Below the pieces are notes generated by a model that was not told where the DNA came from, did not search any database, and was given only the letters and a program-made list of their open reading frames with translations. This document shows, piece after piece, positions 3,982-8,566 of a stretch of 64,000 nt of DNA. How positions within the stretch are numbered: the first letter of the stretch is position 1; every line of letters begins with the position of its first letter. The stretch comes from Flavobacteriales bacterium (GTDB lineage Bacteria; Bacteroidota; Bacteroidia; Flavobacteriales; Schleiferiaceae): the NCBI GenBank assembly GCA_017795025.1, contig CP051243.1:1178001-1242000 (forward strand). Direction: 5' to 3'. The position numbers were made by a program, and so were the translations under genes.

Positions 3982-4734
3982 AGCATAGAGCTTAGAACCT
4001 AGATTGGTCGCGGTGCTCCCTTTTAGACGATATCTTTCTTAAATACTGTTATTTTTCTTCCAAGGGATAATCCTCTGTTGCGGAGACCGTCCCCTTTGCG
4101 GGGCGAAGGGGTGGATTCCGACGGAGGTCGGAAGACAGTCCCTTCATTACATTACGGGCTGTAATACGGGGGGGTAACTTTTCAGATTCAAAAAAAAACT
4201 GATTCTTCGAATTTGGCGACCTGATAATACTCTCCTTAACTTCTCCTACCTTTCATTTTTGCTTGATCAACCGAGAGCTCTGCTCGAGCTCACGGATTCC
4301 ATTGAGAATTTAAGCGATATCCGTAACAACCAGCCGTCGCTAAAGCTATGGCTAGCGAGGAAATCAAGGCTTGGAAGGTTCGCCTCAAAAATGTTCCTAG
4401 CCTCCTGCTTCGGTGGGCGAGCTCCTGGCGTCGCAACCCAACTCAGCTAGTCGTCTACTTCCATTTGTTCGTCTACCCTTCCTAGGCCGGATACCTCCTA
4501 ATAGAAATAAAATCTGGATAGTACGATTTTTTAATATCCAGAAAGTCCATCGTGTAATGTTTTATCAAAAGATACTGTTTGTATCTAAATGCAAATGAAG
4601 CGACTACGAAATATCAATTATTAGCTATTTAAACGTGTTGGAATAATTTGTGAACTATAAGTCTACTTGTGAATTACATCTAGACAAACATGAAATTGCC
4701 ATTAAATTGGAACCAAGTGGTCCTGCTAACAACC
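3982..4734. other. 753-base intergenic region without a convincing gene
   Basis: No reading frame here looks like a real protein; two short open frames at 4259-4598 overlap each other and have no domain, signal peptide or plausible start context. The first 200 bases hold a cluster of small hairpins (separate entry). Roughly 4260-4480 is visibly richer in G and C than 4500-4734, giving a mosaic look. It may be gene remnants or dispersed non-coding repeat, but I cannot identify a parent gene. Confidence 0.6.
4088..4170. repeat. Cluster of three short hairpins (REP-like candidate)
   Basis: Three consecutive inverted repeats: CCCCTT (4091-4096) with AAGGGG (4106-4111); TTCCGAC (4116-4122) with GTCGGAA (4127-4133) around a GGAG loop; and ATTAC (4151-4155) with GTAAT (4161-4165). 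GACCGTCCC (4085-4093) recurs as GACAGTCCC about 49 bases later. No U-tract follows, so this is not a standard terminator. A dispersed intergenic element is the best guess; copies elsewhere in the genome cannot be checked here. Confidence 0.45.
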
Positions 4735-5181: not shown

Positions 5182-5611
5182 TAAAATAGTAGTCGGTGAT
5201 CATTGTATAGGTAGTGGAAGTCCCTGAATGATTCCAACAGCCCTAAATTACCGATTTCAACCATCAATCCCCCGATTAAACCACGAAACCTATTTCCTCC
5301 CAAATAATCCTTCTTCAGAAACGGATCTAAACCTTTATCGAACTCCGCTTTACCTCTTCTACTCTGCGTTGAAGTAAACCCAATCAACCATTTTTCCAAT
5401 CCACCAATCCACCAATTCACCAATTCACCAATCCCCCTTACTCGGCGCCTGGTCATTAAAACAAAGAGCTCAGGCTCTGCATTGATAAACCTCATCCTTG
5501 AAGCAAATTAAACCACCCCAGGCTCCGCTCATAAACTTAAATTTATGTTATAAAGCCTCCTTCCACATATTGCTTAAGGGTTTAATACGTTGTCTTTCAA
5601 AGCAACAACCA
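5182..5611. other. 430-base intergenic region with repeat element
   Basis: An open frame on the minus strand (5181-5495) exists only because a low-complexity Trp/Gly-coding repeat is translated; I reject it as a gene. The region contains the repeat at 5341-5437 (separate entry) and then the leader of the VWA lipoprotein gene. No promoter box of good quality was found. Confidence 0.55.
5341..5437 (-). repeat. Left copy of a dispersed element with a 9-bp tandem tract
   Basis: Read on the minus strand it starts with a tract of period 9 (units like GGTGAATTG, plus-strand 5396-5437) followed by TACTTCAACGCAGAG and a purine-rich tail. A second copy in the opposite orientation lies at 6812-6920, on the other side of the VWA lipoprotein gene. 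The tract is non-coding. Such tracts fit dispersed intergenic repeats of Bacteroidota chromosomes, but the identity of this one is inferred from the paired copies only. Confidence 0.55.
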
Positions 5612-6811
5612 ATGATCCGTAAATCCCTCGCCCTCCTTTGGGTCCTTCCCCTAATTTCTTGTCAGAACGCCAATCCCCAACTAGCAGAGAACACCACTCC
5701 AGAGAATTCTCCCGAAAACCCCACTATTATTGAGCAGCCCCTCGCGGCCGACAGCACGAAAACCACCGAAGCTAAAGTGGAGCTGGTTTTTTGTTTGGAT
5801 GCCACTGGCAGCATGAGTGGTTTGATTTCTACCGCCAAGGAAAAGATTTGGGACATCGTAACTGTGATGGCCCAGCAACAACCGGCTCCCGAGATTCGAT
5901 TGGGCATGGTATTTTATCGCGACCGTGGGGATGATTTTATCACCAAAACCCTGCAGCATACCACTAGTATCGACAGCATCTACACCGAGCTCTTGGACAT
6001 GGAAGCTTCCGGAGGTGGCGATTCGCCGGAAAGTGTGAACCAAGCGCTTTGGGAAGCGGTGAACGATTTAAAATGGTCGGAAAGTCCAAATACCTACCGT
6101 AGCGTTTTTGTGGTGGGTGACTGTCCGCCCCATATGGATTACAACGAACAGCGCTACGAACAGTCCTGTGAACTGGCCAATAAAAAGCGCATCACCATCA
6201 ACACCATTAAACTGGGCAATAGCTGTCGCGATGCCATCCCTCACTTCCAAAAAATGGCGGAAGCCACCAACGGCACTTACTTGCATCTCGACCAAAACGC
6301 CAGCGATCAAATCATCAATACCCCTTACGATGATAGTATTCGCAAAGTGTCAATAAAGATTGATGAGTCGCGCCTTTACTACGGCAGCAAAGTGGAAAAA
6401 GAGGCCATGAATAGCAAAAAGGAAATGGCTCTTGAGCTCTACGACAAAGCCAGCAGCAATGCCGCCGCTTCCCGCGCCAAATACAATATGAGCGAATCCG
6501 GTAAAAAGAATATTTATGGACGTAAAGAACTGATTGAAGATCTGAAAGCGAATAAAATCGCGCTTCAAGACTTAAAAGCTGAAGAACTTCCCGATGAACT
6601 GAAAGACCTCAGCCCTGAGGCGCAAAAAATTGAGATTCTTCGCCTTAAGAAAGAACGCAGTCGATTGGAAAGTGAACTGCTGAGGCTCAGTAAAAAACGG
6701 GATGCTTTCATCAGCGAAAAGCGGGATGCCGATCCCGATGCCCAGTCCTTTAGTAAACAGATCTTTAGGATTCTTCAGGCGCAAGCTGCTGATGCAGGAG
6801 TGATTATTTAG
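5612..6811 (+). CDS. VWA-domain lipoprotein with C-terminal coiled coil
   Basis: 399 residues from the ATG at 5612, chosen because it starts a lipoprotein signal (MIRKSLALLWVLPLISC, lipobox Cys 17); the open frame upstream to 5498 adds 38 residues with no such sense. A low-complexity Pro/Glu/Thr linker precedes a VWA domain at roughly 55-235 with the metal-ion site DATGSMS and a conserved GGGDSPESVNQAL stretch. The rest is charged and helical (repeated Leu/Lys/Glu, about 320-370), probably coiled coil. It would sit on the periplasmic or outer face of a membrane and bind a protein partner through the metal site. The partner is unknown, and both flanks carry inverted copies of a repeat. Confidence 0.8.
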   Translation: MIRKSLALLWVLPLISCQNANPQLAENTTPENSPENPTIIEQPLAADSTKTTEAKVELVFCLDATGSMSGLISTAKEKIWDIVTVMAQQQPAPEIRLGMVFYRDRGDDFITKTLQHTTSIDSIYTELLDMEASGGGDSPESVNQALWEAVNDLKWSESPNTYRSVFVVGDCPPHMDYNEQRYEQSCELANKKRITINTIKLGNSCRDAIPHFQKMAEATNGTYLHLDQNASDQIINTPYDDSIRKVSIKIDESRLYYGSKVEKEAMNSKKEMALELYDKASSNAAASRAKYNMSESGKKNIYGRKELIEDLKANKIALQDLKAEELPDELKDLSPEAQKIEILRLKKERSRLESELLRLSKKRDAFISEKRDADPDAQSFSKQIFRILQAQAADAGVII

Positions 6812-6920
6812 ATGGGATTGGTGAGTTGGGGAATTGGTAGATTGGTGGAATGATGCATGGGTTTTGGGTGATTGCTTCAATGCAGAGGGCACAGAGCTCA
6901 TGAGTTTCGCAGGGAGAAGT
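6812..6920 (+). repeat. Right copy of the dispersed element, inverted relative to the left copy
   Basis: Begins directly after the VWA lipoprotein stop with GGGATTGGTGAG and degenerate 9-bp units, then GGTGATTGCTTCAATGCAGAG and a purine-rich tail ending near GGGAGAAG. It matches the reverse complement of 5341-5437 in order of blocks, though with substitutions and a short insertion. The pair could recombine to invert the gene between them, but no evidence of that is visible. Confidence 0.5.
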
Positions 6921-7143
6921 CGTTGGATTGGCTAAATGCTTAAGGACAACAAAAGGGGCAATCAAAACAAATCCATTTAGCATTGAAGGCGGATTTCCTT
7001 TTGATCAAAAGGTGATGCCAAGAGATATGCTTCTATTTATGCTAGAGTAAATTAAAGGAGAAGAGCTTGTTTTGAGCGAAGTATGCGGATGCGTCATAGA
7101 AAACCTCAGGAGCTTTTCGAAAAAACCTCAAGGGGAATTACAA

Positions 7144-7187
7144 AAAACCTCAAGTACTTTTTGAAAAAGCACTTGAGGTTTTTTTCG
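7144..7187. terminator. Bidirectional hairpin terminator between VWA lipoprotein and rocD
   Basis: AAAAAACCTCAAGT (7142-7155) pairs perfectly with ACTTGAGGTTTTTT at about 7170-7184, with a loop that itself can pair (CTTTT/AAAAG). A-tract and T-tract on the two sides allow intrinsic termination on both strands, fitting the convergent neighbours. It is built from two units of the 22-bp array. Confidence 0.7.
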
Positions 7188-7211
7188 ATTCATGCGGAAG
7201 AATCAACTAAA

Positions 7212-7245
7212 ACTACCGCAAGAATCACTTCAAACATGCGGTAGT
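7212..7245. repeat. Inverted repeat downstream of rocD
   Basis: ACTACCGCA (7212-7220) and TGCGGTAGT (7237-7245) form a perfect 9-bp inverted repeat with a 16-base loop. It lacks a clear U-tract and lies about 40 bases past the rocD stop on the minus strand. It is part of the 22-bp-period array; an RNA 3'-end stem or a protein-binding site are both possible. Confidence 0.5.
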
Positions 7246-7285
7246 ATTACCTTAAACATGCTGATGTTTTTTATGAGGCCTTGAA

Positions 7286-8566
7286 TTATTCGAATTCTTG
7301 TAAAGTCCTTTGAATAATAGCCACACAATCCAATAGTTGCTCCTCGGTCATGACCAAGGGAGGCGCAAAGCGAATGATATTACCGTGGGTAGGCTTGGCT
7401 AATAAACCATGATCGCGCAAGCGCAAGCAAATATTCCAAGCGGTATCGCTTTCCGGCGAATCATTGATTACAATCGCATTGAGTAAACCTCGACCTCGTA
7501 CCAAGCTTACTACCTTACTGCGATCGATATATTCGTTCATTTTCTCGCGGAAAAGCTCTCCTAAACGACGCGCATTTTGGGCGAGTTTTTCATCGCGAAC
7601 CACTTCCAAAGCGCTCATAGCCACCGCTACCCCAAGTGGATTACCACCAAAGGTAGAACCATGGGTGCCTGGCTTTATCACGTGCATAACCTCATCATCC
7701 GCTAAAACGGCGGATACTGGATAGGCGCCACCACTAAGGGCTTTCCCTAAAATCAAAATATCGGGACGTACATAAGTGTCGGCCTGACGTTCACAATTCC
7801 CTTCGCAAGAGCAATTACCGCATACGGCCAATAGGGAACCGGTACGGGCAATTCCGGTTTGAATTTCATCGGCAATGAAGAGCACATCCTTGGCCTTACA
7901 TAAATCGCGTACGCGACGTAAATAATCCGCATCAGGAGTTACTACTCCCGCTTCCCCCTGAATAGGCTCAACTAAGAAACCCGCTACATGATCATCTTCC
8001 AGGGCGGCTTCTAAAGCTGCAATATCGTTGTAAGGAATACGCTCGAAACCGGGGGTATAAGGTCCAAATCCAGATCGTGCTTCCTCATCATTAGAGAAGG
8101 ATATAATCGTGGTGGTACGTCCGTGAAAATTATTTTCGGCTACTACAATCTTGGTACGTTCCTGTGGGTAACCCTTGGCTTCTTGAGCCCACTTTCGACA
8201 AATCTTGATGGCGGTTTCAACCGCTTCGGCCCCAGTGTTCATAGGCAGCACCTTATCAAAACCGAAGTACTCGGTAATGTACTGATCGTAAAGGCCTAAA
8301 TTGGAATTATAGAAAGCCCTACTAGTAAGGGTTATCTTTTCCGCTTGTTCTTGTAAGCTCTTTACAATTCGTGGGTGACAATGCCCTTGGTTTACGGCCG
8401 AATAGGCAGAAAGGAAATCGTAATAACGCTTGCCTTCCACATCCCAAACGTAAACCCCTTCTCCTCTATCCAAAACTACGGGTAGTGGATGGTAATTGTG
8501 GGCTCCGTGTTTATTCTCTAGGTCCATGAGCTCCCTAGAGCTTAAAATTTGAGTGCTTTCGGTCAT
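7286..8566 (-). CDS. rocD: Ornithine--oxo-acid aminotransferase
   Basis: 426 residues. PLP-dependent enzyme converting ornithine and 2-oxoglutarate into glutamate semialdehyde and glutamate, linking arginine and proline metabolism in the cytoplasm. Class-III aminotransferase features: [11 protein letters not shown] cofactor loop, [23 protein letters not shown], and the Schiff-base lysine K275 in ILGKALSGG. Compared with well-known ornithine aminotransferases it has a short cysteine-rich insertion at residues 249-258 (CxxCxCxxxC) just before the PLP lysine segment. Transcribed alone, with terminator-like hairpins downstream. Confidence 0.93.

Follow-up and report, generated by a model that had tools for sequence, protein, structure and literature searches.

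What is a tandem array of 22-bp units doing between the ends of two genes, and which protein, if any, reads it? The question arises from positions 7078–7275 of the window (the whole 64,000-nucleotide stretch of DNA analysed here), for which the original prediction described a noncoding array of variable cores on a strict 22-bp period. Comparison of sequences makes it likely that this array belongs to a family of DNA elements whose partners are HU-HIG proteins (PF18291), which form a branch of the HU/IHF superfamily and were found here in Bacteroidota. The HU-HIG arrays as a whole suggest a previously undescribed system of protein–DNA recognition.

The 22-bp array is real, as judged by lag identity, shuffles, and dyad count. 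Identity at lag 22 over 7078–7275 is 0.523, the highest among lags 5–79, and the comparison with shuffled sequence on which the original prediction had staked its case came out in favor of the array: the lag-22 value was reached in 0/5000 dinucleotide-preserving shuffles, and likewise in 0/5000 when any lag from 10 to 44 was allowed. Scanned in 110-bp stretches over lags 10 to 60, the entire window peaks at lag 22 and at the position of the array. TRF recovers only part of it (7100–7168, period 22). Nine imperfect 16-bp dyads occupy 7079–7269, each laid out as AAA-[5][5]-TTT (16 bp without the spacer that follows), at steps of 22, 22, 22, 21, 22, 22, 22, and 22 bp, and the supposedly strict period therefore holds for seven steps while one (7145 to 7166) is 21. 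Dyad matches amount to 44/72, a value equaled by 0/5000 mononucleotide shuffles with the best of 22 phases allowed.

The short cores that had been listed are present, although what was taken for variability resolves into two unit types. A units (7101–7181) place CCTCA opposite GCTCC, CCCCT, GTACT, or GCACT, and B units (7079–7094 and 7188–7269) draw on CATGC, TATGC, CATCC, CATCA, CTTCC, CTTGC, and CTACC. A/T tracts flank the central segment in both types, the order is B-A-A-A-A-B-B-B-B, and the 22-bp pitch is preserved over both A/B borders. Unit 1 (7079–7094, AAGTATGCGGATGCGT) is of B type with poor outer arms (dyad 5/8) and lies 22 bp from unit 2 (7101–7116), an A unit with half-sites CCTCA and GCTCC (6/8) that is followed after 22 bp by unit 3 (7123–7138; CCTCA and CCCCT, with a degenerate right arm, AAT; 4/8). 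After a further 22 bp comes unit 4 (7145–7160; CCTCA and GTACT; 4/8), then after 21 bp unit 5 (7166–7181), a reversed A unit (GCACT and CCTCA; 5/8) that stands 22 bp from the first of four B units: unit 6 (7188–7203; CATGC and CTTCC; 6/8), unit 7 (7210–7225; CTACC and CTTGC; 4/8), unit 8 (7232–7247; CATGC and CTACC; 4/8), and unit 9 (7254–7269; CATGC and CATCA, AAACATGCTGATGTTT; 6/8).

The noncoding reading holds, since the array sits between two gene ends. It lies 16 bases from the end of a putative aminotransferase gene (7286–8566, minus strand, 426 aa, ornithine-aminotransferase-like by reading) and 267 bp beyond a convergent 437-aa ORF (5498–6811, plus strand) with a von Willebrand-like region, also by reading. 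Units 4 and 5, with their A and T tracts, pair as the left and right arms of a hairpin (7138–7188) that is terminator-like on both strands, folding at −19.6 kcal/mol on the plus and −24.8 kcal/mol on the minus strand (z = −5.2 and −8.0; 0/200 shuffles each). Folding of the B block is weaker (z = −3.4 and −4.5). The claim that part of the array doubles as a terminator finds support in the A block only, through its strong hairpin, whose stem absorbs the A and T tracts on both strands, although a terminator pattern scan lists none (0 reported). The A block may also act as a shared terminator that ends both convergent transcripts. Other tandem repeats flank the vWA-like gene at 5380–5434 and 6813–6851 (CCAATCCA units; ~16-bp TGGAATTGGTAGATTGG units). 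Short ORFs at window positions 4259–4450 and at L013 2324–2578 share an almost identical stretch (LDQPRALLELTDSIEN..SDIRN), apparently a dispersed repeat of this genome and unrelated to the array.

The window array mixes the two unit types and is an orphan, with no HU-HIG gene alongside. A relative of the aminotransferase gene is present in 7/7 genomes of the genus, namely that of the window (G000) and those of six sister species (G001–G006), whose copies are 86–88% identical. In the 600 bp after this gene, 22 is the leading period in 0/6 sisters, so the array was either gained in this genome or lost in the sisters. In G001 and G005, what by reading seems to be the same convergent neighbor is present, with a short terminator-like inverted repeat in between.

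The array design recurs elsewhere. A blastn search with window positions 7060–7300 finds matches in 5/39 genomes including its own, all within the genus, and two sequence models, R1 (B trimers) and R2 (A trimers), recover arrays beyond these; 150 candidates were scored per genome, which makes the array lists lower bounds and is also the depth behind the absences within the genus. The search of this genome and its relatives that the original prediction called for thus finds the design at at least eight other intergenic places here (near 74051, 526291, 685257, 1322237, 1468067, 2250298, 2832041, and 2960232) and in 4/6 sister species (G001, G002, G003, and G005). Beyond the genus, G026 and G028, from other families of the order, also contain arrays. 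The exact pattern of two ACCKCAWG cores 18–26 bp apart occurs in its own genome in the window array only. Across 34 genus arrays, 16-mers scoring 9–10 of 10 are spaced by 22 (56 cases), 21 (8), 44 (33), 43 (4), and 66 bp (14), with few others, counts that show the sharpness of the pitch and give no independent period, as these arrays were retrieved with 22-pitch queries. Some arrays are nearly uniform, for example L237. In three arrays of G002 (L020, L023, and L024) the spacers tend to hold a second small palindrome (TTTACTGTAAAC-like), and a 22-bp unit can thus contain two dyads.

By rough ORF calls, 39 array loci are intergenic or nearly so; the exceptions are two arrays that share 13–48 bp with an ORF of 85–92 aa, and at three of the loci an additional ORF of 80–110 aa spans the array. 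Both neighbors could be called at 23 of the 28 genus orphan arrays examined (9 convergent, 12 codirectional, and 2 divergent). The nine arrays of G000 share no flanks, leader, or tail (18 flanks of 700 bp, blastn at E 1e-3), on which ground a MITE with leader and tail was dropped. The idea that orphan arrays are leftovers of lost HU-HIG genes was likewise abandoned, because a search of ~2 kb to each side of 29 orphan loci (less at contig ends) turned up no HU-HIG relic (best tblastn E 0.20). Among tRNA and tmRNA genes, only one tRNA was found at 37 array loci, in L009 at ~0.9 kb from the array.

The most recurrent neighbor of the arrays is the HU-HIG gene, which is among the flanking ORFs at 9/39 array loci (the copy at L025 is poorly preserved). 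A second recurrent set comes after the HU-HIG gene (L012_R, L017_R, and L095_R), and only two further small sets of flanking ORFs recur. Linked proteins match PF18291 over its full length in 5/5 cases scanned (profile 1–124 or 1–125; 88–116 bits against a cutoff of 26.2; E-values 5e-25 to 1e-33), 4/5 pass the cutoff of NCBIfam HU_rel TIGR01201, and the Pfam and NCBIfam scans of these HU-HIG proteins show no nuclease domain. The PF18291 cutoff is cleared by many canonical HU/IHF genes as well, with coverage of ~30–121 and ~30–50 bits, and HU-HIG was therefore told apart from them by coverage and score. An AF2 model built for one Chryseobacterium member shows the HU fold that defines the HU/IHF superfamily (mean pLDDT 83.6, pTM 0.60), and its top PDB match is 4fmr (Bacteroides), followed by HU and IHF. 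HU and IHF carry a conserved intercalating proline at the arm tip; alignments A3 and A5 show no invariant proline in the stretch that, as placed by sequence alignment, probably forms the arm tip, and an IHF kind of kink is therefore uncertain. Two queries returned no relatives of HU-HIG in viral contigs. One genome, G159, has 14 HU-HIG loci over 50 bits.

We propose a class of arrays that would be bound by HU-HIG, with at least three dyads of 16–18 bp at a two-turn pitch and a unit type common to an array adjoining a HU-HIG gene. The window array has the dyads and the pitch, and its unit types are shared in this way: the B units resemble the array beside G000:684734 (L139), and the A units resemble arrays beside HU-HIG genes in G005 (L151) and G002 (L147 and L160). 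The second HU-HIG gene of G000 adjoins a weaker 22-period stretch, unlike the other arrays, at ~2179430. Arrays lie downstream of the HU-HIG gene in the window's genus, G026, and G028, starting 26–97 bp past the stop codon at seven genus loci, and upstream at most of 38 named loci from other genera and of still more distant ones. At the named loci, upstream arrays were found in 16/16 scorable cases with the last unit 52–197 bp before the start codon (11/16 within 80–130), distances for which some unit chains include a spurious last unit. The Bacteroidetes promoter motif is TTTG-N-TANNTTTG; between upstream array and start codon it was found at 0/22 loci (22 of the 38), and TANNTTTG alone at four.

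Several features accompany HU-HIG genes locally. Six loci (L200–L205) from Epilithonimonas and a Chryseobacterium MAG share a short, conserved inverted repeat, TGTAGATTTTTATCTACA, placed between array and gene ~100–120 bp ahead of the start codon. The B-type HU-HIG gene and its array are followed, in three species of the window's genus, by a gene for a 198–201-aa protein with a conserved SAGCQ motif (L012 2223–2819, L017 2549–3151, and L095 2195–2800); the one copy tested has no Pfam or NCBIfam match, and the protein may be a cell-wall hydrolase, in a neighborhood that recalls the HU/amidase couplets of Bacteroides. A period-21 stretch with a different AT-rich unit lies downstream of the HU-HIG gene of L136 (G002:C3, ~2000–2110), and ORFs that are HTH-like by reading occur near the HU-HIG genes of L136, L143, and L192.

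Period tests were also begun from the HU-HIG genes themselves. In a motif-free test over lags 12–60, lag 22 leads at 19/30 HU-HIG loci versus 0/37 canonical HU/IHF loci, where HU-HIG means more than 50 bits with long coverage and canonical the rest (one control, L168, has 50.4 bits), and where the 30 loci come partly from genomes picked for having arrays. Among the 11/30 loci at which 22 is not the top lag, three (L134, L139, and L151) carry arrays that the motif detects. Unit scores of at least 8 occur at 15/20 HU-HIG loci versus 0/10 HU/IHF loci; as this threshold was chosen after the scores were known, the motif-free tests are preferred. At the 38 named loci, which were chosen by protein alone (set a: Epilithonimonas, Chryseobacterium, Kaistella, Flavobacterium, Capnocytophaga, Lutibacter, and others), the leading lag is 22 in 26/38 and 44 in 6/38, and in controls 1.8–2.3 kb away it is 22 in 1/38. 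Set b comprises 20 of 28 further HU-HIG loci above 50 bits, from four genomes of the class that belong to other families (f46 and f69, probably Bacteroidales). Here the leading lag is 22 in 4/20 and 23 in 4/20, and reading finds an upstream array with a pitch of 20–23 or its double in 11/20, with unit sequences unlike those of the window.

When flanks of equal length are compared, a leading pitch of 20–23 or its double, 41–46, is found in 26 + 9 of 38 loci of set a versus 8 + 5 of 38 controls, and in 10 + 2 of 20 loci of set b versus 0 + 5 of 20 controls. Median best identity is 0.74 at HU-HIG loci versus 0.53 in controls for set a and 0.66 versus 0.51 for set b, and it is also lower in those controls (13/38 and 5/20) that have such a pitch or its double. 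Some other period leads at 3/38 and 8/20 HU-HIG loci, and in the DNA examined at the HU-HIG loci G002 C249, G246, and G254 C14 a clear array is missing. Units at L163 and L166 are also unlike those of the window, and some distant units are clear dyads, for example GCGAACGATCGTTCGC and GTCGGACAGCTGTCCGAC. With pitch and linkage present in distant loci where the units are unlike, it is pitch and linkage that are conserved and not sequence.

Arrays and HU-HIG genes are present and absent together. Among 119 genomes of the order, 9/12 with HU-HIG above 60 bits contain an exact unit pair at spacing 22, versus 1/107 others (P = 2e-10, Fisher's exact test; the counts come from two tables, of pairs and of HU-HIG, whose shared handles agree, and 82 genomes of the HU-HIG table are unlisted). 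In G004 and G006 of the window's genus, every HU/IHF gene is canonical and full-length HU-HIG is absent. R1 finds nothing in either genome even with E raised to 1, and the top R2 matches stand at E 0.003 and 0.03, respectively; the G006 assembly is 89% complete.

Array and protein subtype also agree in the cases tested. A-type arrays at E < 1e-3 (R2) occur in G000, G002, and G005 only, of the seven genus genomes. An A-type HU-HIG gene lies directly after folC in G002 and G005, and the same place in G000 holds a 26-residue relic of it (57.7% identity, E 6e-5). The 1.5 kb after folC in G001, G003, and G004 contain no A-type gene match at E 1e-3, and in G006 there is a weak match of 47 aa (E 1e-4) ~1.2 kb off. 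A-type arrays thus persist in G000 without an intact A-type gene; the B-type gene of this genome is at G000:684734–685108. A third array type of G002, CACCGCGGTG, was predicted beforehand to lie beside the HU-HIG gene at C87 or C249 and is present at C87: four copies of ACCGCGGT at pitch 22, plus one more unit in altered form, lie ~0.1 kb past the gene. The two HU-HIG paralogues of Epilithonimonas hungarica adjoin arrays that are unlike each other (CAACTTGATG and CGTACGTGCC), and each array resembles that of its paralogue's closest relative in another genome. For the 16 scorable of the 38 named loci, protein similarity and array similarity are correlated (Mantel r = 0.42, 1/2000 permutations), and shared descent alone could yield part of this correlation. 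In Epilithonimonas caeni (G123), the nearest HU-HIG relative of the CAACTTGATG-type genes is split over two reading frames (L254 2097–2362) and CAACTTGATG-type arrays remain elsewhere (L261 and L263), a state of broken gene and surviving arrays that parallels the A type in the window's genome.

That a protein binds one face of the helix remains the best reading after these comparisons, with HU-HIG as the likely family, although the binding itself is something we infer. Each HU-HIG lineage would have its own dyad, often as three to five repeats beside the gene, plus orphan arrays elsewhere. The pitch would correspond to two helical turns, at 22 bp here and 20–23 bp in more distant families. With one HU-HIG dimer on each dyad, neighboring dimers would share one face of the DNA and their bends would add up, and a four-dyad array might be curved or wound into a tight nucleoprotein knot in which about four units perhaps make one turn of DNA. 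An array upstream of the HU-HIG gene probably serves autoregulation; because arrays lie downstream at some loci and upstream at others, a simple operator does not explain all of them. Orphan arrays may mark, structure, or insulate intergenic places, mostly gene ends. In the window, A units, whose gene is now a relic in this genome, stand between B units of the type that goes with the G000:684734–685108 gene.

An alternative that we consider unlikely is a mobile or self-copying minisatellite family, MITE- or REP-like, for which HU-HIG would be a host factor or a passenger. Orphan arrays are dispersed and intergenic and come and go, with 0/6 sisters carrying the array at the window locus, and BrickBuilt of Porphyromonas gingivalis is described as a minisatellite in a MITE (PMC4596501). 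Such mobility fits poorly with the nine G000 arrays, which lack common flanks, leader, or tail, and with the absence of HU-HIG relics near the 29 orphan loci; recurrent flanking ORFs are confined to HU-HIG, the next gene, and the two small sets, and unit sequence tracks HU-HIG lineage while pitch stays constant between unlike units. The same constancy, across species and unrelated unit sequences and in step with one gene family, leaves hardly any room for chance minisatellites whose pitch was inherited through duplication by slippage, for which near-uniform arrays such as L237 might speak.

The arrays could instead act as RNA, with tandem hairpins for termination or 3′ end protection and the HU-HIG linkage secondary. 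Folding is strong on both strands of the A block and weaker in the B block, a terminator-like inverted repeat takes the array's place in G001 and G005, and 9/23 genus orphan arrays are convergent (with 12 codirectional and 2 divergent). We nonetheless regard this as very improbable: many B units are not self-complementary in mid-unit (CATGC opposite CTTCC), which is why RNA structure was set aside as the common principle, arrays lie upstream of the gene at most named and more distant HU-HIG loci, and it is hard to see what a pitch of two helical turns would mean for RNA. It is also improbable that another, unseen DNA-binding protein is the true partner and HU-HIG merely a linked gene. The HTH-like ORFs near three HU-HIG genes would suit such a partner, as would the A-type orphan arrays that persist in G000 without their intact gene, yet HU-HIG recurs most among the array flanks and the co-occurrence holds down to subtype.

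A pairing of HU-HIG proteins with arrays would share features with several known systems. HU proteins have little sequence preference in binding and are a textbook case of weak specificity, and IHF sites are single and asymmetric. HU-HIG arrays resemble IHF sites and HU-wrapped DNA in the shared protein fold and, in the window units, in A/T tracts around a central segment, and they differ in being tandem dyads that vary between paralogues. Partition (parC/ParR and tubC/TubR) and repressor systems offer known cases of tandem sites in phase next to a gene for a small DNA-binding protein, and HU-HIG arrays likewise adjoin such a gene; unlike partition sites and iterons, they are chromosomal, several, and dispersed, their partner has an HU fold, and no ATPase or GTPase partner was noticed alongside. 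REP elements with RAYT also combine one gene and an adjacent repeat with orphan repeats elsewhere in the genome, as HU-HIG genes do with their arrays, but the scanned HU-HIG proteins lack a nuclease domain and the units keep a fixed helical pitch. Roles for HU-HIG in recognizing mobile elements and in chromosome partition were reportedly proposed by Burroughs et al. in 2017. Searches of the open literature, with subscription journals mostly outside it, yielded no report of arrays beside HU-HIG genes, nor any DNA target of the family (PF18291/TIGR01201).

The original view that no known class of repeat has this design is fair for Rfam, where 0/15 matches over 6500–7900 (E up to 1, mostly microRNA families) reach or even approach the gathering score, but a similar 23-nt intergenic minisatellite, BrickBuilt, has been published in P. 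gingivalis (PMC4596501). It is the closest published thing that we found, compared here by its description. BrickBuilt has 19 dispersed intergenic copies of imperfect 23-nt tandem units, with up to 22.8 units and often leader and tail segments (3/19 elements have neither), and BrickBuilt_14 is listed beside a DNA-binding protein (PF00216) (PMC4596501). It is thus intergenic, dispersed, and imperfectly tandem like the HU-HIG arrays, and distant HU-HIG loci have a leading period of 23 in 4/20 cases. The unit of 23 nt differs from the 22 bp, with one step of 21, of the window array, leader and tail are frequent there whereas the nine G000 arrays share no flanks, and no cognate protein is proposed in the passages of PMC4596501 considered. 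What our searches of the open literature found nowhere is the combination of an HU-superfamily protein with paralogue-specific unit sequences over several families of one class.

A broader reading, which we hold only tentatively and think somewhat less probable than its opposite, is that HU-HIG proteins are sequence-specific nucleoid proteins with private protein–array codes across Bacteroidota. Each paralogue would have its own dyad, about four dimers would close an ~88-bp loop, and the arrays would be small nucleoid or segregation centers, with several codes per cell that can be mixed in register as in the window and with BrickBuilt of P. gingivalis as one of them. If HU-HIG proteins do read these arrays, a branch of HU with a private, helically phased array for each paralogue would provide a natural one-gene-one-sequence code, and the many HU-HIG copies of some genomes (14 in G159) would become directly testable. 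A function would also be at hand for a class of intergenic repeats, perhaps with BrickBuilt among them, that is currently catalogued as minisatellite or MITE.
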